From Gilvimarinus sp. DA14 (GTDB taxonomy: Bacteria > Pseudomonadota > Gammaproteobacteria > Pseudomonadales > Cellvibrionaceae): a DNA stretch of 64,000 nt. A model generated the notes under the pieces. It was not told where the DNA came from. It saw only the letters and a program-made list of their open reading frames with translations, and did no database searches. Made by a program: the position numbers and the translations under genes. Of the stretch, positions 43,337-50,186 are shown one piece after another (position 1 is the stretch's first letter; each line of letters opens with the position of its first letter). The DNA is taken from the NCBI RefSeq assembly GCF_024204685.1, contig NZ_CP100350.1:2272501-2336500 (forward strand). Direction: 5' to 3'.

Positions 43337-43780
43337 ATGGACTTTGATTTAAATATTCAAGATGTTATTACCAACCTGTTTCAGTTGGGCATTGCGTTAG
43401 TGCTGGCCCTACCCATGGCGGTTAACCGCGAGCACAGGGCCAAGGGCGCGGGGCTACGCACCTTTCCACTGGTGGCCATTGCTTCTTGTGCCTATATGCT
43501 GGTGGGCATGCAGGTATACGACAGCGGTGAGGCCGAAGCGCGGGTGATGTACGGTATTATTACCGGCATAGGTTTTATCGGTGGCGGTGCAATTTTAAAA
43601 CATAACAACCAAACCGTAGGCACGGCTACCGCGGCGAGCATCTGGAATACCGGTGCCATTGGTATTGCAGTGGCGTACAGTCGCTACGAAATTGCGCTGG
43701 TCCTGGCGATAACAAACTTCGTGATCCTGCAGTTTGCCACGCCACTGAAAAAGCATGATACCGATCAATCGGAAGTCTGA
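43337..43780 (+). CDS. MgtC/SapB family membrane protein
   Basis: A 147-residue membrane protein carrying the MgtC core: NREHRAKGAGLRTFPLVAI and GIITGIGFIGGGAIL followed by VGTATAASIWNTGAIG. It lacks the longer C-terminal domain of Salmonella MgtC, so this is the short form usual in environmental bacteria. It follows the SIMPL gene and converges with the glycosyltransferase gene, their last 16 bases overlapping. Confidence 0.9.
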   Translation: MDFDLNIQDVITNLFQLGIALVLALPMAVNREHRAKGAGLRTFPLVAIASCAYMLVGMQVYDSGEAEARVMYGIITGIGFIGGGAILKHNNQTVGTATAASIWNTGAIGIAVAYSRYEIALVLAITNFVILQFATPLKKHDTDQSEV

Positions 43781-45039
43781 TTGCGACTTTTTGCCTCTAT
43801 CCAACGCGACATAAATTCGGTACTACGCGCCGCGTGATACTGAAACATAGCGCCCAAAAAATTATCCTGGCGGTGCTGCGCCAGGTTCTGTCGCAACTCG
43901 TTTAAGTGCGCAAGCCAAGCAGGGCATAAGTGCTCAGCTAGGTAACGCGCTCGCAGCAAGTTGTCGCAATGCTGCGCTGCCAACTGCCAGCGTGTGCCAT
44001 CGCGATATAACTGCACCGCGCCGGCAACAAACTCATCCACCGAATCGGCAATGACGCCGGGCCAGGGATTGCTTCCTGCCATGGCTTCACTGGCGATACT
44101 GGTAGCCACACTGGGCGTGCCGCTCAGCATAGCGTCCATCAGTTTGCCCTTGATGCCCGCACCAAAACGCAGAGGCGCCAACAGCACGCGCGCGTCAGAA
44201 ATAACCTGCTGCGCATCGTCAGCCCAACCCTTGACCAAAAATCTCTCTTTAGGATTGCTTAACTGGGTCGCTTTTTTGGGCGGGTACGAGCCGTAAATAT
44301 GCAGCTCAGCCTCAGGGGCCTGCTTGCGCAACTGCGGCCAAATGGTCTGCTTTAGCCAAAGCACCGCATCCCAGTTGGGGGCGTGGCGAAAGTTGCCAAT
44401 GGTGACAAAATGCTCGCGCCGTGCGAAGGCCGGCACCGGCCTTTGGCCGGGCTCAACCATAAATGGCAAGTGATACAAAAGCGATGGAGGAACCGAAAAA
44501 TACTGGGTAAGCAGGGCAATTTCTTTGTCCGAAATCATCAGCGTCAGATCGCAGCGAAATATCGCCGCAACTTCGCGCAAAATCATATCGCTAGCGCGCA
44601 TGGCGCGATACAGCTCGGCATCGTCTGCGAGCACCGGCCCGGCACTGGCATTCACTTTCAGCGCGTCTTTTAACAGCGCCTCGCGGGCGGCGCGCAAACT
44701 GTGCAGATCTTCGGTATCCAGAACCCGCAATGCATCCGGGCAAGCACTGGTCACACGCCAACCAAATTGCTCTTCGGTAACAAAGCGATCAAAAATCACC
44801 ACCGCCGGATTTAACTCGGCGACAAACTGATCAAAACTGCTGCAGTTGAGCGCTACCTGATGGGCGTGAACATTCACCGACTGCAAATCGAGTTGATGTT
44901 CGCTAAGCGCGGCGGCGCAGGCAAAGTGCACTTCGTAGCCAGCGCTGTTTAAGCTTGCCAATAGCTGTGCGATACGCGCACCGGCCGCCGATGAATTGGG
45001 CTCGGGCCACACATAACCCACAAGCAAGGCGCGCATCAT
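43765..45039 (-). CDS. Glycosyltransferase (GT-B, group 1/4-like)
   Basis: A 424-residue GT-B fold glycosyltransferase. The N-terminal half begins MRALLVGYVWPEPNSSAAG; the C-terminal half has FVTIGNFRHAPNWDAVLWL, ELHIYGSYPP and the sugar-nucleotide block RVLLAPLRFGAGIKGKLMDAM. The start at 45039 overlaps the lpxR-like stop by four bases (ATGA), giving coupled translation. The acceptor is unknown. Placement after a lipid A deacylase-like gene suggests work on an envelope glycolipid, but that is inference. Confidence 0.84.
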   Translation of the reverse strand: MMRALLVGYVWPEPNSSAAGARIAQLLASLNSAGYEVHFACAAALSEHQLDLQSVNVHAHQVALNCSSFDQFVAELNPAVVIFDRFVTEEQFGWRVTSACPDALRVLDTEDLHSLRAAREALLKDALKVNASAGPVLADDAELYRAMRASDMILREVAAIFRCDLTLMISDKEIALLTQYFSVPPSLLYHLPFMVEPGQRPVPAFARREHFVTIGNFRHAPNWDAVLWLKQTIWPQLRKQAPEAELHIYGSYPPKKATQLSNPKERFLVKGWADDAQQVISDARVLLAPLRFGAGIKGKLMDAMLSGTPSVATSIASEAMAGSNPWPGVIADSVDEFVAGAVQLYRDGTRWQLAAQHCDNLLRARYLAEHLCPAWLAHLNELRQNLAQHRQDNFLGAMFQYHAARSTEFMSRWIEAKSRNQTSD

Positions 45040-46010
45040 AATCGCCACGCCAAACTGATCGCGCCAAAACTGTCTTTGCTGGATTTATTTTTATCCAAAG
45101 AATCACCGCTTTTGTAACTCACCGCCAAACTAAAACTGTCCCAGCTGTAGGCGAGGCCGACGGTGGAGGCCAGCTGTTCATGCTCGAGATAATCGGCGGC
45201 ATTATCGCGATAGCTATTGCCGTTTACCAAAATCTGATTAATCACATACTCGGCCTCCAAACCGGCGTAGACATACCAGCCTCCCTCTACCGCCATGGGC
45301 ACACTAATCCGGCCATACTGCAACGCTGTGGTAGCAAAACTCTGGCGCAAACCTTTGCCAAAACGCACGATGGCGCCCGCGCCTAACGTACTTTCTAAAT
45401 TGCCGACACCGGCCTGCGCCAGCAGTACCGTGTCCCAGCGCTCGGCCAGGCTATAACGCCATACCGCTGTGCGTTCGAAGGCAAACAAAAATTTATTGCC
45501 AAGTTGATAATCCCAGCCCTGGGGCTGATCGGAGCCGGTGATTTTATGCACCAACTCCTGCGAGCGCTCGGCACCGGATGCCGGCCCCATTATCCCTGCG
45601 GTGGTGCGCACCAAATCCGCAAAGTCTTCCTCTACCACGGCGTGGCTTACCCGATACAATAACAGCCCCGCGTAGGGTGAATCGGCAGGGTCAGGTACAG
45701 CTTGGGTTATATCGCTCGGAGTAATCATCGCCTGGCCCAACGAGTGCTCACTAAACATGGTGGCATTAGCCGACGGCTGCAGCATCCACGCCAAGGGTTT
45801 GGCTAGTAGCGGTGTTTTATAGGGGGTCTCGCCCTCGGTGGATAAATCGTAAAGCGAGAGAAATAAACCGTTGGTATAGCCCCCGTCTGTGCCGATAAAC
45901 AAATCGTTTTGCCACACGGCCGAGGCCCAGTCGAACGCCTGAGTATGGGGAGATAACAGAGCTAAAAGAGCGGCAAGACCTGAAGCTGAGGCTTTATTCG
46001 TCTTCGTCAC
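45036..46010 (-). CDS. LpxR-like lipid A deacylase (DUF2219)
   Basis: A 324-residue outer membrane beta-barrel related to LpxR, which removes the 3'-acyloxyacyl group of lipid A. It shows WQNDLFIGTDGGYTNGLFLS, the SPYAGLLLYRVSHAVV block, and GIMGPASGAERSQELVH with the GWDYQL that follows, all family features. The start is a GTG at 46010 inside the last codons of the DUF3144 gene, giving a signal peptide ending HTQAF. The frame is open further upstream but lies in that gene. Activity is not proven by sequence. Confidence 0.85.
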   Translation of the reverse strand: MTKTNKASASGLAALLALLSPHTQAFDWASAVWQNDLFIGTDGGYTNGLFLSLYDLSTEGETPYKTPLLAKPLAWMLQPSANATMFSEHSLGQAMITPSDITQAVPDPADSPYAGLLLYRVSHAVVEEDFADLVRTTAGIMGPASGAERSQELVHKITGSDQPQGWDYQLGNKFLFAFERTAVWRYSLAERWDTVLLAQAGVGNLESTLGAGAIVRFGKGLRQSFATTALQYGRISVPMAVEGGWYVYAGLEAEYVINQILVNGNSYRDNAADYLEHEQLASTVGLAYSWDSFSLAVSYKSGDSLDKNKSSKDSFGAISLAWRL

Positions 46011-46299
46011 TGCGCATATATACCTTGTAGTTTTCCCGGTAGTCCTCAAGGTTGTCACGCAGTAAATCCCGATACTGGTTGGTCAGATAGCGCAGCGAGG
46101 GCTCTATCTCTTCGGTAAATTCTTTTCTATCCACCGATGCACCGGCTACGGTGAATGCATTAAAACGCGCGGCGGCCTGCAACAGGGCCGCGCTGACCAT
46201 GCTGGGGTCGGCATCATCGCAGCGCTCGTTGGCGCGCTGGATGAACTCATCCACCAAATTCCAAAATATTTCGTCGTTATCGCTCAAAGTTAGCCTCAA
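45994..46299 (-). CDS. DUF3144 family protein
   Basis: A 101-residue acidic soluble protein with the DUF3144 beginning DEIFWNLVDEFIQRAN and a C-terminus rich in Asp/Glu/Arg (YMRSDEDE). Its function is unknown. Its start overlaps the upstream gene's stop by four bases (ATGA) and its end overlaps the lpxR-like start by 17 bases, so it is translated as part of one polycistronic run. Confidence 0.83.
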   Translation of the reverse strand: MRLTLSDNDEIFWNLVDEFIQRANERCDDADPSMVSAALLQAAARFNAFTVAGASVDRKEFTEEIEPSLRYLTNQYRDLLRDNLEDYRENYKVYMRSDEDE

Positions 46300-46685
46300 T
46301 TCATAAAGGTCATGCGGCGAATCAAACCGCCTTGAAACTGATATATTTTAACCACATCCATTTGCTGGCGCGTGCCTTTTACTTTGTAGCTGGCGCGCTC
46401 CAGGGTAATCACTTTATCGTTAAGCTCGATGACTTTTAGTATTTCGCTGGTGGGCTCATGCTGGGCAAATGTACGGCTGGTGGTGGCGATTAACGCACCT
46501 TTGCCCGAGGTCACAGGGGTATCCGGGTAGTTGTACACCTCGATATCATCGTGAAAATAACTCGCGTACTTATCCGCGTCGTGCAGGTTATAGGCGGCCA
46601 CCTGATCCTGCACCTGTATTGAATGTTGCGCCATCGCCAGGGCGCTCACTAGCCACAACACCACCGCCGTACACCAATGTTTCAT
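46296..46685 (-). CDS. NTF2-like (SnoaL) exported protein
   Basis: A 129-residue protein with a signal peptide (VVLWLVSALAMA) and an NTF2-like cone fold: QVAAYNLHDADKYASYFHDD, DIEVYNYPD, and GALIATTSRTFAQHEP are the SnoaL-type features. The start at 46685 has GGGAGGG in front. The ligand or enzyme activity is unknown; the fold is used both by enzymes and binding proteins. It overlaps DUF3144 by four bases. Confidence 0.82.
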   Translation of the reverse strand: MKHWCTAVVLWLVSALAMAQHSIQVQDQVAAYNLHDADKYASYFHDDIEVYNYPDTPVTSGKGALIATTSRTFAQHEPTSEILKVIELNDKVITLERASYKVKGTRQQMDVVKIYQFQGGLIRRMTFMN

Positions 46686-46742
46686 TGTTTTCCCTCCCGA
46701 ATGCTTGCGAAAGTGTAGCGCAAGCGCGCGGAGCAGCAAAAC

Positions 46743-47495
46743 CTAATCGACAGCGGTGACTGTGCGTTGAATCTCTCTTTCGAATCGCTCTCCAGCACCA
46801 TAGCTGAGATGGTAGTAACGATCGGTAAGCGCAACCAGGGTATCGTTGACTACCCCGTAGCGTCTTTGCGACTCGGTTTCTACGTGAAAGCTGATAAAAA
46901 TAAAGGCACGCCCCGAGGCATCCACCCGACTGCTACTGGCAAGGGGCACACCATCCGCACGAATCCATACCGAGTAGATACCCTCGTAAGACTTTACGTA
47001 TTTGCGCTGGCGTTTGCTGAGCCGACTCTCGGGCAGGCTAAAGTCCAAACGCATTACCTCGCGCCCGTCCAGTTCGTCTGCCTCGGCGCCCAGGTATTCA
47101 CCCTCACCCATTACCCGGCGAATTTGATCGGCGGCGCGAACCGCTGCGCGCACCGGCAGCGCCGAGAGTTCGTGCACACCCTCTATGGCGGGCGTGGGCG
47201 CATCGGAGTTTTCCAGCCTGGCTTGTTCTTCGCTATCGATTTGCGCCAGTAGCGAGCGGCTGTAGGCGATGCTCAAGCTCGCGCCTGTATCTACGGCCTC
47301 TACCTCGGCGTAGCCCTCGCGGGTGATTTTGTCATCGCCCTTGCCGTTGGCCTCCACCACTTTTGCACTGACTTGGTAGCGCCCGCTGACGGGCTGACTG
47401 AAACGGTCTAGAGCGCTGTGCAAATCATCTAAAGGTTCAGCGCGCACGCAGACGGCGCACAGCAACAATAAGATACCGCTTGAGGATTTGTTCAT
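46743..47495 (-). CDS. Exported protein of unknown function
   Basis: A 250-residue protein with a signal peptide (GILLLLCAVCVRA). The mature part is a single domain of alternating beta strands (e.g. VWIRADGVPLASSSRVDASG) reminiscent of outer membrane lipoprotein-carrier or DUF3108 folds, but not assignable. It overlaps the preceding gene by four bases (ATGA). The next gene is 57 bases away, the only larger gap in this nine-gene run. Confidence 0.7.
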   Translation of the reverse strand: MNKSSSGILLLLCAVCVRAEPLDDLHSALDRFSQPVSGRYQVSAKVVEANGKGDDKITREGYAEVEAVDTGASLSIAYSRSLLAQIDSEEQARLENSDAPTPAIEGVHELSALPVRAAVRAADQIRRVMGEGEYLGAEADELDGREVMRLDFSLPESRLSKRQRKYVKSYEGIYSVWIRADGVPLASSSRVDASGRAFIFISFHVETESQRRYGVVNDTLVALTDRYYHLSYGAGERFEREIQRTVTAVD

Positions 47496-47842
47496 GGTTT
47501 ACACACCTCTGTGATCGCCAGCACTAGAATGCCTCCGCTAAACACCAGGCTTAACAGCGCTCCGCGCAGCAAAATCACATCCGCCGATGCGCGCCAGGCT
47601 GTGGTCGGCAGTTCCACGCTGGAGTGGTTAAAGCTCACTTGACTCAGCAATTGCCCGAGCCACTGCTGTAACAGTGACAACCACTCCAGGCCTAGGTTTC
47701 GCCAATCCAGATTCCCAGCCCCACGCCAAACCTCAACCTCGAGAAGGCCAACCGCATCGCCGGGCCAGGGTGGTGGATAAGCTTGAGCTGCGCCACTGCA
47801 CATGGCCAGCACACAGACACTGAACAAAGCCAAATGGCGCAT
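47492..47842 (-). CDS. Exported/membrane protein of unknown function
   Basis: A 116-residue protein: signal peptide ending SGAAQA, a Trp/Pro-rich start (YPPPWPGD), and one C-terminal membrane helix (LLSLVFSGGILVLAITEV) that could anchor it. The family is not recognised. It follows the ABC permease by 9 bases and overlaps the next exported gene by four bases, so it is likely co-translated with both. Confidence 0.68.
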   Translation of the reverse strand: MRHLALFSVCVLAMCSGAAQAYPPPWPGDAVGLLEVEVWRGAGNLDWRNLGLEWLSLLQQWLGQLLSQVSFNHSSVELPTTAWRASADVILLRGALLSLVFSGGILVLAITEVCKP

Positions 47843-47851
47843 CCTCGCCCC

Positions 47852-48757
47852 CTAGATTTCAAAGCGGCGATTGCGTAAATACACCGCAGCCGTCAGCGAC
47901 AAGGCCGCAACCAGCCACCCGAGATACAAACCAGGGCGGGTGAATAATTCCAGTACTGCCGCACTAAAATTATCCTGCCCTGACGGCCCATCCAGAGATT
48001 GCAGCGCAAAGCCTTCCAGGTAATCACCCAAGCCACTCAGCAGATAACTCTGACCCAGCAGAAGATTTTCAATAAACCACACCAGTAATATAAGCAGCAG
48101 CAAGTTCCCCAGCGGGTGTTTTTTGCTCCAGGCCGAAAACAGCAACAGCATGCTGTATAGCGGCAACCCCCACAGCGCCGCCAATAGCAAATACACAAAA
48201 CTGGTAGCACCTACGGCCATGGCATCCATGGCGGACCAAAGAGAAAAAGCATCCAATGACAAAGAGGTTGTTCCCAGAGCAACCGTTAAGGTGCTGAATA
48301 CCAGTGTTGTGAACAAAGCGGCGAGCCAATACATCAATGGTATTGCCAATACGGCCACAAACAACTTGGTCGCAACCACCAGCCACTCGGACACGGGCAT
48401 GGATTTAAAAAAGAGCACACTGCGATCCTGCCGGTCCGTCAGCAGAGCTGCAAGACTGTAACTGACCATATTAATCAACGCCACTACAGTAAAAATGAGG
48501 TAAATGATGTATTGCACATGGGCTAATTTATCCAAAATGCTCTCGCCACCACCCTGCCCTTTTATCTCGACGTCCTTTTTCCAGGGCAGGTCCAGTTCGA
48601 CATCCACATTCATGGAAACATCCGCGTGCTGAAACAGCGAGTGCATGGACACAACCGAAAATAAAATAATAATCAGCGCCAACCAAAACGGCACTTTGAA
48701 CAAATGGCCCGGGTTTTCCCAATACTCCCGGCGCAGCTGAGCAATAACCTGATTCAT
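47852..48757 (-). CDS. ABC-2 type permease
   Basis: A 301-residue inner-membrane permease with about six helices. The cytoplasmic helices and motifs resemble ABC-2 exporters: ALLTDRQDRSVLFFKSMPVS (the short linker before the core), and the Ser/Leu-rich TM4 (LLLAALWGLPLYSMLLLF). A large periplasmic loop lies between helices 1 and 2 (SMNVDVELDLPWKKDVEIKG). It overlaps the ATPase gene by four bases and belongs to the YtrA-type operon below. Substrate unknown. Confidence 0.86.
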   Translation of the reverse strand: MNQVIAQLRREYWENPGHLFKVPFWLALIIILFSVVSMHSLFQHADVSMNVDVELDLPWKKDVEIKGQGGGESILDKLAHVQYIIYLIFTVVALINMVSYSLAALLTDRQDRSVLFFKSMPVSEWLVVATKLFVAVLAIPLMYWLAALFTTLVFSTLTVALGTTSLSLDAFSLWSAMDAMAVGATSFVYLLLAALWGLPLYSMLLLFSAWSKKHPLGNLLLLILLVWFIENLLLGQSYLLSGLGDYLEGFALQSLDGPSGQDNFSAAVLELFTRPGLYLGWLVAALSLTAAVYLRNRRFEI

Positions 48758-49614
48758 GTCTGACCTCCCTGGACCGCTTTGGCCACAAACACTTCAGCTA
48801 AAGACGCGCGCGCCACCTCACCCATAGCTTCTAGCTGCGTGCGCTCTACGCCCTCAAACAGATACTGTTTAGCGCCCAGGGCTTTGATTTCACCAATAGG
48901 GTTCAGAGCTTGCGCCTGTGGCTGCAGCTCGGTGGGCACAGTCACTTTGCTAAAGCGCGCCTCAAAATCTTCCAGCGTGGAGTTCAGCACAATGGCGCCA
49001 TCGACAATAAACATCACGTCGGTCAGCAGATGCTCAACTTCTTCCACCTGATGGGTGGTGATAAGAATGGTTTTCTCGTCGTCGTAATAATCGTTGAGCA
49101 GGGCGTCGTAAAAGGTGCGGCGATAGAGCAAATCCAACCCCAGGGTGGGCTCGTCCAACACCAACAGTTTGGCGTTGATAGCCATCACCAGCGCCAGATG
49201 CACCTGGGTCACCATGCCCTTGGATAAACTGCGGATACGACTGGATAACGGCACCTTGGTTTTTGCCAGAAACTCGCGCGCCCGCTGCTCGTTAAAGTTG
49301 GGGTGCACACCCGCCGCATAGGCAATTGCCTGCTTTACCGTCATCCAGCGTGGCAGGGTGGCGGTATCGGCGATAAAGCACACTTGCTCTAACATTTTTG
49401 CCCGTTCACGCCGGGGGTCAAAACCCAATACATCTATGTCACCATCGGCCACGCAAAGTCCCAGCAGCGACTGCAGCAAGGTCGTCTTGCCCGCGCCATT
49501 GGGTCCAATCAAACCGACGATCTTACCGGCGCCAACCTGTAAATCCAGCTTCTCTAGCACCCGCTTCTTGCCATAGCGTTTGCTGAGCCCTGCGGTTTTT
49601 ATTATTTGCTTCAC
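48754..49614 (-). CDS. ABC transporter ATPase (YtrB-like)
   Basis: A 286-residue ATPase with Walker A GPNGAGKTT, signature SLSKGMVTQVHLALVMA, Walker B KLLVLDEPTLGLD, and the switch His in ITTHQVEEVEHLL. The signature has LSKGM rather than LSGGQ, as in ABC-2 exporters of the Ytr/CcmA type. The ~75 residues beyond the core probably contact the permease. It overlaps ytrA-like and permease genes by four bases each. Confidence 0.9.
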   Translation of the reverse strand: MKQIIKTAGLSKRYGKKRVLEKLDLQVGAGKIVGLIGPNGAGKTTLLQSLLGLCVADGDIDVLGFDPRRERAKMLEQVCFIADTATLPRWMTVKQAIAYAAGVHPNFNEQRAREFLAKTKVPLSSRIRSLSKGMVTQVHLALVMAINAKLLVLDEPTLGLDLLYRRTFYDALLNDYYDDEKTILITTHQVEEVEHLLTDVMFIVDGAIVLNSTLEDFEARFSKVTVPTELQPQAQALNPIGEIKALGAKQYLFEGVERTQLEAMGEVARASLAEVFVAKAVQGGQT

Positions 49615-49973
49615 GACTCCTCCTTAAGGCTGTTAATGGCCTTTACTAATGCCTCTTTATCCATCCCCAAGCGCCTGGCCTGGGCCAGCAACTCTGGCAG
49701 CTGTTGCACAAACTGCTCGCGCTCGCGCTCGCGCAGGCGGACATCGGCCCCCGCACGCACAAACATGCCCAAGCCGCGACGCTTTTCTACCAGCTGCTCA
49801 TCCACCAGCGCCTGGTAGGCCTTGGCAACAGTCAAATGATTAATCTGATAATCCGCCGCCACCTGACGTACCGAAGGCAGGGCTTCGCCGGGCGCTATAT
49901 CACCGGCCACAATCAGCGCCACCATGCGCTGGTATAGCTGTCGGTAAATGGGTTGATCATCGCGCCACTGCAT
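49611..49973 (-). CDS. GntR-family repressor (YtrA subfamily)
   Basis: A 120-residue regulator. The N-terminal winged helix is DQPIYRQLYQRMVALIVAGD, PSVRQVAADYQINHLTVAKA and YQALVDEQLVEKRRGLGMFV. The C-terminal part is short and helical, the YtrA type without a ligand-binding fold. It is the first gene of the nine-gene run; YtrA-type regulators usually repress their own ABC operon. The palindrome at 49995-50018 lies 22 bases upstream. Confidence 0.92.
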   Translation of the reverse strand: MQWRDDQPIYRQLYQRMVALIVAGDIAPGEALPSVRQVAADYQINHLTVAKAYQALVDEQLVEKRRGLGMFVRAGADVRLREREREQFVQQLPELLAQARRLGMDKEALVKAINSLKEES

Positions 49974-49994
49974 GCCTACTCCGCTCGCCCTTCG

Positions 49995-50018
49995 ATATAG
50001 TGTTATACATAACTATAT
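49995..50018. promoter_or_regulatory. Candidate GntR/YtrA operator palindrome
   Basis: ATATAGTGTTAT/ATAACTATAT (49995-50018) is a near-perfect inverted repeat in an A/T-rich stretch, 22 bases before the regulator gene. Such a site and place fit autorepression by the YtrA-like protein. The exact consensus of this protein is unknown. Confidence 0.68.
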
Positions 50019-50186
50019 CACCATATCTTTGCTCGTCAATAGGGTGACGAGCTGCAAAAGACACAGATTGGGGAACAATTCAAGACTGTAATAGGGCGAC
50101 GATTTGCGCATAATGCGCTGGGGCCCGACCTCAAGGGCCCTGAGACCGCTGTGCGGCGAACGAAAATGTCCAACAGAGAAACTTAC

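Follow-up and report, generated by a model that had tools for sequence, protein, structure and literature searches.

A YtrA-type regulator, an ABC exporter and an LpxR relative in a nine-gene run of Gilvimarinus sp. DA14

The stretch of DNA analysed here, referred to as the window, comprises 64,000 nucleotides of Gilvimarinus sp. DA14 (contig NZ_CP100350.1, positions 2,272,501 to 2,336,500), a genome of 3,956,837 bases in a single contig. It includes a run of nine genes on the minus strand (49973 to 43765), flanked by a divergent tex and a convergent MgtC-like gene, both on the plus strand and both named from the sequence without a family scan. The run opens with a YtrA-type regulator and an ABC exporter and closes with an LpxR relative and a glycosyltransferase (Table 1); this regulator-led exporter unit with an outer-membrane LpxR relative, first noticed from the window alone, proves to be an arrangement inherited within the family Cellvibrionaceae. 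Pfam assigns the labels GntR, ABC_tran, SnoaL_2, DUF3144, LpxR and Glyco_trans_1_4. The ABC-2 permease label of the original prediction is upheld in part: the predicted model resembles ABC-2-type permeases, but the Pfam match is sub-threshold and the structural E-values are weak.

Table 1. Features of the nine-gene run, from high to low coordinates (aa, amino acids).
Feature	Position	Strand	Basis or remark
Putative sigma-70-type promoter	50012..50039	-	-35 TTGACG, 16-nt spacer, TG before -10, -10 TATAGT
Candidate YtrA operator, GGTG-N16-CACT	49999..50022	-	covers -10 box; 1 mismatch to GGTGNTATAGTNATGTATANCACC
YtrA-subfamily GntR repressor, 120 aa	49611..49973	-	PF00392 E 1.1e-16; 3tqn E 3e-30
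ABC transporter ATPase, 286 aa, GTG start	48754..49614	-	PF00005 E 6.8e-22, 79 bits
ABC-2-type permease, 301 aa	47852..48757	-	predicted model and Foldseek
P4, 116 aa	47492..47842	-	signal-like N-terminus and hydrophobic C-terminus by eye
P5, 250 aa	46743..47495	-	signal-like N-terminus by eye; LolA/LolB/LprG-like model
17-base block CGCTTGCGCTACACTTT, candidate second promoter (-10 TACACT) or hairpin	46710..46726	-	conserved in three species
SnoaL/NTF2-like protein, 129 aa	46296..46685	-	PF12680 (SnoaL_2) 5.5e-13; signal-like N-terminus by eye
DUF3144 protein, 97 aa, TTG start	45994..46287	-	PF11342 1.8e-25
LpxR lipid A 3'-O-deacylase relative, 324 aa, GTG start	45036..46010	-	PF09982 3.9e-65
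Glycosyltransferase group 1 (Glyco_trans_1_4), 424 aa	43765..45039	-	PF13692 6.6e-20

All nine frames are present on the minus strand within the interval originally proposed (43765-50018), and that they overlap or nearly touch was confirmed on the sequence. The eight junctions comprise four overlaps of 4 bases, one overlap of 17, two short gaps and one longer gap. The 4-base overlaps are GTGA between ytrA and the ATPase gene, and ATGA between ATPase and permease, P4 and P5, and LpxR and glycosyltransferase; the junctions had been described as mostly ATGA, which overstates their number. Permease and P4 genes are separated by 9 bases. If DUF3144 starts at the TTG at 46287, it lies 8 bases beyond SnoaL, and if LpxR starts at the GTG at 46010, it overlaps DUF3144 by 17 bases. 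The single gap of 57 bases reported at 46686-46742 is exact, with the P5 stop at 46743 and the SnoaL ATG at 46685-46683. The G+C content of the run, 0.53-0.55 in 2-kb steps, resembles that of most of the window and thus gives no sign of foreign origin. Nor is the order of the genes a product of chance, since all nine recur at the same tex-mgtC site in two relatives, G081 and G036 (genomes, and loci with the letter L, are cited by number).

The first gene has the features of the YtrA subfamily: an N-terminal GntR winged helix-turn-helix (Pfam domain at residues 10-72) followed by a short C-terminal domain of ~50 aa, ~120 aa in total; first place in the run, by gene arrangement, overlapping an ABC ATPase gene; and, in its own putative promoter, an operator-like site of ~24 bp with distant half sites. 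The solved relative 3tqn aligns over residues 1-111. In a standard promoter scan the promoter scores 10 of 12 consensus matches; four such sites were observed in the region against 5.2 expected in shuffles, so it is supported by its position and the overlapping operator rather than by count. The operator-like sequence, in full GGTG-ATATAGTTATGTATAA-CACT (24 bp), fits with one half-site mismatch the motif GGTG-N16-CACC, which the accessible part of PMC6746942 quotes for a YtrA from Xanthomonas citri.

A longer operator consensus was derived from the ytrA upstream regions of relatives, and matches with up to three mismatches were accepted. It has a single match in the window (0 in 100 shuffles) and a single match in the genome (0 for the reversed control). 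Across 120 genomes of the family there are 60 matches in 47 genomes (reversed control, 9). No more than 3 kb separates 43 of them from a YtrA orthologue, and the other 17 lie farther away; conversely, 43 of 48 YtrA places have an operator-like site within 3 kb. Those without one are in G036, whose site departs from the consensus, by eye, at more than three positions; G116, where ytrA sits near a contig edge; G069; G032; and one of two copies in G062. A site occurs somewhere in 44 of 47 genomes with YtrA and in 3 of 73 without (Fisher 1.7e-25, too optimistic given shared ancestry, and with a consensus partly drawn from the same genomes). From these counts, the nine-gene run is most likely governed by YtrA and, at this cut-off, would be its only target in the genome. 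Two other genomes, G022 and G044, have three and four separate matches, respectively, suggesting a larger YtrA regulon in genus g22.

The exporter in the run consists of one ATPase and one permease. Walker A (GPNGAGKTT), signature (LSKGM) and Walker B (LLVLDEPT) motifs are visible in the ATPase translation, as in ABC-2 exporters. The permease matches Pfam only below threshold (ABC2_membrane_3, E 0.66). For its model, built from 8 sequences with a predicted local distance difference test (pLDDT) score of 72, the best Foldseek rows are NosDFY chains (probability at most 0.99, E 0.04, TM-score 0.4), with none at E 0.001; PmtCD and ABCG-type chains are also listed. The structure match supports, without proving, an ABC-2-like protein.

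The LpxR relative starts with a signal-like stretch (by eye), and its outer-membrane barrel domain (PF09982) spans residues 21-323, with 220 bits against a cut-off of 26. According to the accessible text of PMC6260217, N9, D10, T34, and H122 are calcium-site and catalytic residues of LpxR. In the window protein N35, D36, T46, and H155 are invariant among 14 LpxR sequences, its own included. H155 aligns with the catalytic H122 of Salmonella LpxR (3fid) in both single-sequence and profile alignments, and T46 with the calcium-site T34 through a weak separate segment of the profile alignment; the N35-D36 stretch, an ND motif, fell outside both. The window protein differs from 3fid in being distant in sequence (phmmer E 0.0032), in having D161 at the position of E128, which is thought to steady H122, and in being encoded behind an exporter. 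It is probably enzymatically active.

Of the proteins in between, P4 has no Pfam match; it has relatives in G036, G081, and G086, and a further row, from L038, was in the wrong frame and was not used. P5 has no Pfam family (only a sub-threshold TIM21 match, 0.0062), and its profile finds no relative by sequence among solved structures (one row at E 1.7). Its model has a pLDDT of 90.7 and was built from 12 sequences. The top Foldseek rows are a DUF1329 protein (E 1.4e-03) and Pseudomonas aeruginosa LolA (E 1.5e-03), with none at 0.001, and LprG appears further down, among porins. VIA-align gives Z 8.5 to 3bk5 (lipoprotein-sorting domain), 8.3 to DUF1329, 8.1 to LolB (9tpm) and 7.5 to 3buu (LolA superfamily), values at which (Z near 8) a match may reflect a common arrangement and is suggestive only. 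Porins score as well or better (Z up to 9.3), with alignments that start only at residue 30 or later; the alignments to LolA/LolB-type chains and DUF1329 begin at residue 17-19, and the likeness to LolA, LolB and LprG extends over helix and sheet in the model (residues 17-250). P5 is thus likely, but not certain, to have a LolA-like shape, which in the LolA/LolB superfamily means a half-open beta barrel with a helical lid. Unlike these proteins it shows no sequence match to the group, and no lipoprotein-sorting partner genes are present in the nine-gene run. A P5 relative (32% identity) is found outside the Cellvibrionaceae in Duganella rivi (L064:7938-8684), with no YtrA, ATPase or permease match in the 16.7 kb of sequence covered.

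The solved relative of DUF3144 (2lyy, 1.4e-07) is an uncharacterized protein, and a literature search on DUF3144 gave no match. For the glycosyltransferase there is no solved structure at E 0.001; around its homologs in eight relatives from the order the neighbours differ, and no lipopolysaccharide locus was recognized by eye, without a family scan.

That the nine genes form one operon is supported by their shared direction, by frames that mostly overlap, and by flanking genes of which one is divergent and the other convergent. The original prediction held that a promoter in the 57-base gap would speak against this, and here the evidence is divided. The block CGCTTGCGCTACACTTT, which contains TACACT, is identical in the window, G036, and G081 while its flanks diverge, and has a single match in the window at up to three mismatches. 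It is a candidate secondary promoter. There could accordingly be two transcription units, with YtrA controlling ytrA-ATPase-permease-P4-P5, and SnoaL-DUF3144-LpxR-glycosyltransferase having their own gap promoter and an independent role. Consistent with this, -35-like boxes (TTGCCG and TTGGCT) lie 16-17 bases upstream of TACACT in G036 and G081, for 8 of 12 matches, and G086, which lacks the block, has a 9/12 pair with TATAAT close before SnoaL (neither with shuffle comparison). In G036 P5 and SnoaL are 285 bases apart, and in G075 the second half stands without YtrA or transporter. On the other hand, the standard scan finds no promoter in the window's gap; the boxes around TACACT amount to 7/12 by eye; the only 8/12 pair listed nearby ends at the SnoaL start codon itself; no terminator-like site is listed in the gap; and P5 and SnoaL are less than 60 bases apart in G066 as in the window. 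Two units are a tentative possibility.

The block in the window also holds hairpin arms (RNA fold z -1.97, with 7 of 200 shuffles as stable); an intrinsic terminator was considered and rejected, the hairpin having no T run. A small membrane-protein-like frame of ~60 aa, GWGTL(A/T)LINAG...GKNRSG, read from the DNA, precedes SnoaL in G054, G004, G075, and G086 (L039, L041, L042, L043), and the window's gap is too short for it. The wider gaps in G086 and G004 contain this frame and so do not count in favour of two units.

A survey of gene neighbourhoods, suggested earlier as a check, gave a mixed answer: the exporter head and several tail pairs stay linked in the family, but the parts are separable (G004, G075, G086, G054). 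The full set at the tex-mgtC site is found in three of eight Gilvimarinus members (the window, G081, and G036), so that the nine genes are not always together. In G066 eight of the genes are present and P4 was not detected; G086 has no LpxR orthologue, only a weak 27% LpxR match elsewhere; and G054 is without P4, P5, and a local LpxR, its LpxR being on another contig. In G019, G020, G043, G060, and G025 the order, beside tex, is YtrA-ATPase-permease, adaptor, pump, then DUF3144-LpxR-glycosyltransferase, a resistance-nodulation-division (RND) pump thus occupying the place of P4-P5-SnoaL. Pump and adaptor were assigned by Pfam in G019 (AcrB family 8.3e-166, HlyD_3 2.5e-09) and by length and similar N-termini in the others; coordinates are L044:6891-11221 (the locus scanned), L045:6970-11405 and L048:4983-13896. 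G025 has two pump-adaptor pairs in tandem (L048), and G046 neither pump nor P4-P5-SnoaL. In five loci of genus g2, P5 comes after the transporter head and before an M16-type peptidase (Pfam scan on L053 alone), which is followed by DUF3144. Two loci of that genus (L053:6134-9291 and L051:3007-6170) carry, between YtrA exporter and P5, a further ATPase together with a large permease, which in L053 is FtsX by Pfam.

The pump in the same slot raises another explanation, that the operon simply serves the efflux of toxic amphiphiles or antimicrobial peptides, with P4-P5-SnoaL replacing the RND pump of sister genera. Among curated models, PmtR and PmtA also rank with the best for the regulator and ATPase, but the scores fall far short of their cut-offs. 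This explanation is unlikely: P4, P5, and SnoaL lack pump features, LpxR and glycosyltransferase are not efflux parts, and there is only one ATPase and one permease.

Linkage was defined as lying within 20 kb and counted among genomes with both genes; some unlinked cases may be contig breaks. The rows used were 48 YtrA places (E below 1e-28), the best glycosyltransferase row of each of 62 genomes, and the 36 best LpxR places in 35 genomes (E up to 3.8e-37), weaker rows being left out; the LpxR query has matches in 78 of the 120 family genomes at E 0.001. The permease occurs in 48 of these genomes, YtrA orthologues in 47, DUF3144 in 64, the glycosyltransferase in 62 and P5 in 22. YtrA and permease are linked in 47/47; the permease is linked with P5 in 10/15, with DUF3144 in 22/36 and with the glycosyltransferase in 21/32. 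Within the tail, linkage is 14/22 for LpxR and glycosyltransferase, 31/45 for DUF3144 and glycosyltransferase, and 5/14 for LpxR and P5. The absence of conserved linkage in relatives, named earlier as grounds for abandoning the idea, is therefore not what is seen within the family. Outside it, in a sample of 244 genomes of the order (family rows dropped before counting), no linkage was found for LpxR and glycosyltransferase (0/21 genomes with both), LpxR and DUF3144 (0/3), or glycosyltransferase and DUF3144 (0/5); glycosyltransferase and LpxR are both common in the order. These three genes are accordingly rejected as an old conserved unit outside the family.

A tree of 35 LpxR proteins (14 linked, 16 from the 22 places in the family without linkage, and five from four genomes of the order) places all 14 locus-linked proteins in one 20-row group (support 93/90), beside six unlinked. 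The linkage label requires at least two changes on this tree, against a mean of 11.2 when shuffled, with 0 of 500 shuffles as low. One gain of LpxR linkage with later relocations would be the simplest account.

The genes could also have accumulated by descent at the tex-mgtC site, each with its own job and no joint function. What the site holds does differ from genus to genus (RND pump, M16 peptidase, FtsX-type permease, HI0933-like, esterase-like protein), and the lack of linkage between glycosyltransferase and LpxR outside the family points the same way. Within the family, however, LpxR-glycosyltransferase and DUF3144-glycosyltransferase linkage persists despite insertions, and the Gilvimarinus genes stay co-directional with overlaps or short gaps. 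Accumulation without joint function is conceivable, and falls short of an even chance.

The Bacillus subtilis ytrGABCDEF operon has two ATPases and further transporter subunits, and Pmt of Staphylococcus aureus has a second ATPase/permease pair. With one ATPase and one permease, the run is not of the ytrGABCDEF type. It does share with YtrA operons (ytrGABCDEF and the X. citri regulon, as far as the sources at hand describe them) a short GntR repressor in first place, an ABC transporter and a putative 24-bp operator of GGTG-N16-CACC form, and it differs from them in having P5, SnoaL, DUF3144, LpxR, and a glycosyltransferase downstream. YtrA-like genes generally lead operons with ABC transporters (PMC6746942, accessible portion), and the claim that the system is not recognizable as described therefore holds for the combination and not for the head: in the literature searched, partly in excerpt, the P5-SnoaL-DUF3144-LpxR-glycosyltransferase tail was not found described for the YtrA kind, and among the papers listed by a literature search none joined Gilvimarinus or Cellvibrio with YtrA or LpxR. 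The S. aureus pmtR-pmtABCD system likewise has a GntR repressor controlling an ABC exporter, PmtR being released by exported peptides (PMC5080381, in the part available). The PmtR model aligns over residues 4-119 of the regulator, with 60 bits against a cut-off of 200, so the regulator is not PmtR; the run also has no second ATPase/permease pair, and carries a Gram-negative envelope tail.

The reading favored here, at about even odds (roughly 0.5), is that a YtrA-type, autorepressed operon for an envelope-stress exporter has gathered envelope genes: a typical YtrA unit of known kind as head, and a lineage-specific mosaic of envelope cargo as tail. A YtrA dimer would block RNA polymerase until released by an amphiphilic signal (a peptide, lipid-linked precursor or drug), and an exporter of two ATPases and two permeases would clear or flip the amphiphile. 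In the periplasm P5 may handle a lipid or lipophilic ligand; once induced, LpxR would trim lipid A in the outer leaflet; and the glycosyltransferase would modify a surface glycan or glycolipid. The second half would probably be read from the upstream promoter together with a weaker one in the 57-base gap.

Several observations weigh against this operon. G004 keeps P5-SnoaL-DUF3144-LpxR-glycosyltransferase without YtrA, ATPase, permease or P4, and G075 keeps SnoaL-DUF3144-LpxR-glycosyltransferase without regulator or transporter; of the 18 genomes with both permease and LpxR, only 10 have the two linked; G021 has a permease match without a YtrA orthologue at the cut-off; and the conserved block suggests a separate promoter for the second half. 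The head's ordinary YtrA-ABC arrangement and the separable parts weaken the original interpretation. The B. subtilis ytr operon responds to lipid II inhibitors but has no consistent role in antibiotic survival (PMC12772383, accessible text), which means that "stress exporter" could be a misnomer even among the operons already known.

A more elaborate and rather improbable version is an inducible trans-envelope lipid route, in which the ABC-2 exporter would load a lipid or glycolipid onto the LolA-like P5 for delivery to the outer membrane, where LpxR would remodel neighbouring lipid A, all under one dedicated repressor; in sister genera the RND pump would be the alternative exit module.

Regulated lipid A deacylation is known mainly from pathogens. 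Here, in a marine lineage, an LpxR relative shares a run with a YtrA-type repressor that has a single operator-like site in the genome, so induction, export and lipid A trimming could all be probed through that one repressor. P5 belongs to a family without a name, and its model is confident and probably LolA-like; the tex-linked site, for its part, reveals which envelope modules stand in for one another. In Salmonella, vesicle release rises when lipid A is trimmed by a different deacylase, PagL (PMC4958258, available part), a precedent that offers one testable output for lipid A trimming here.

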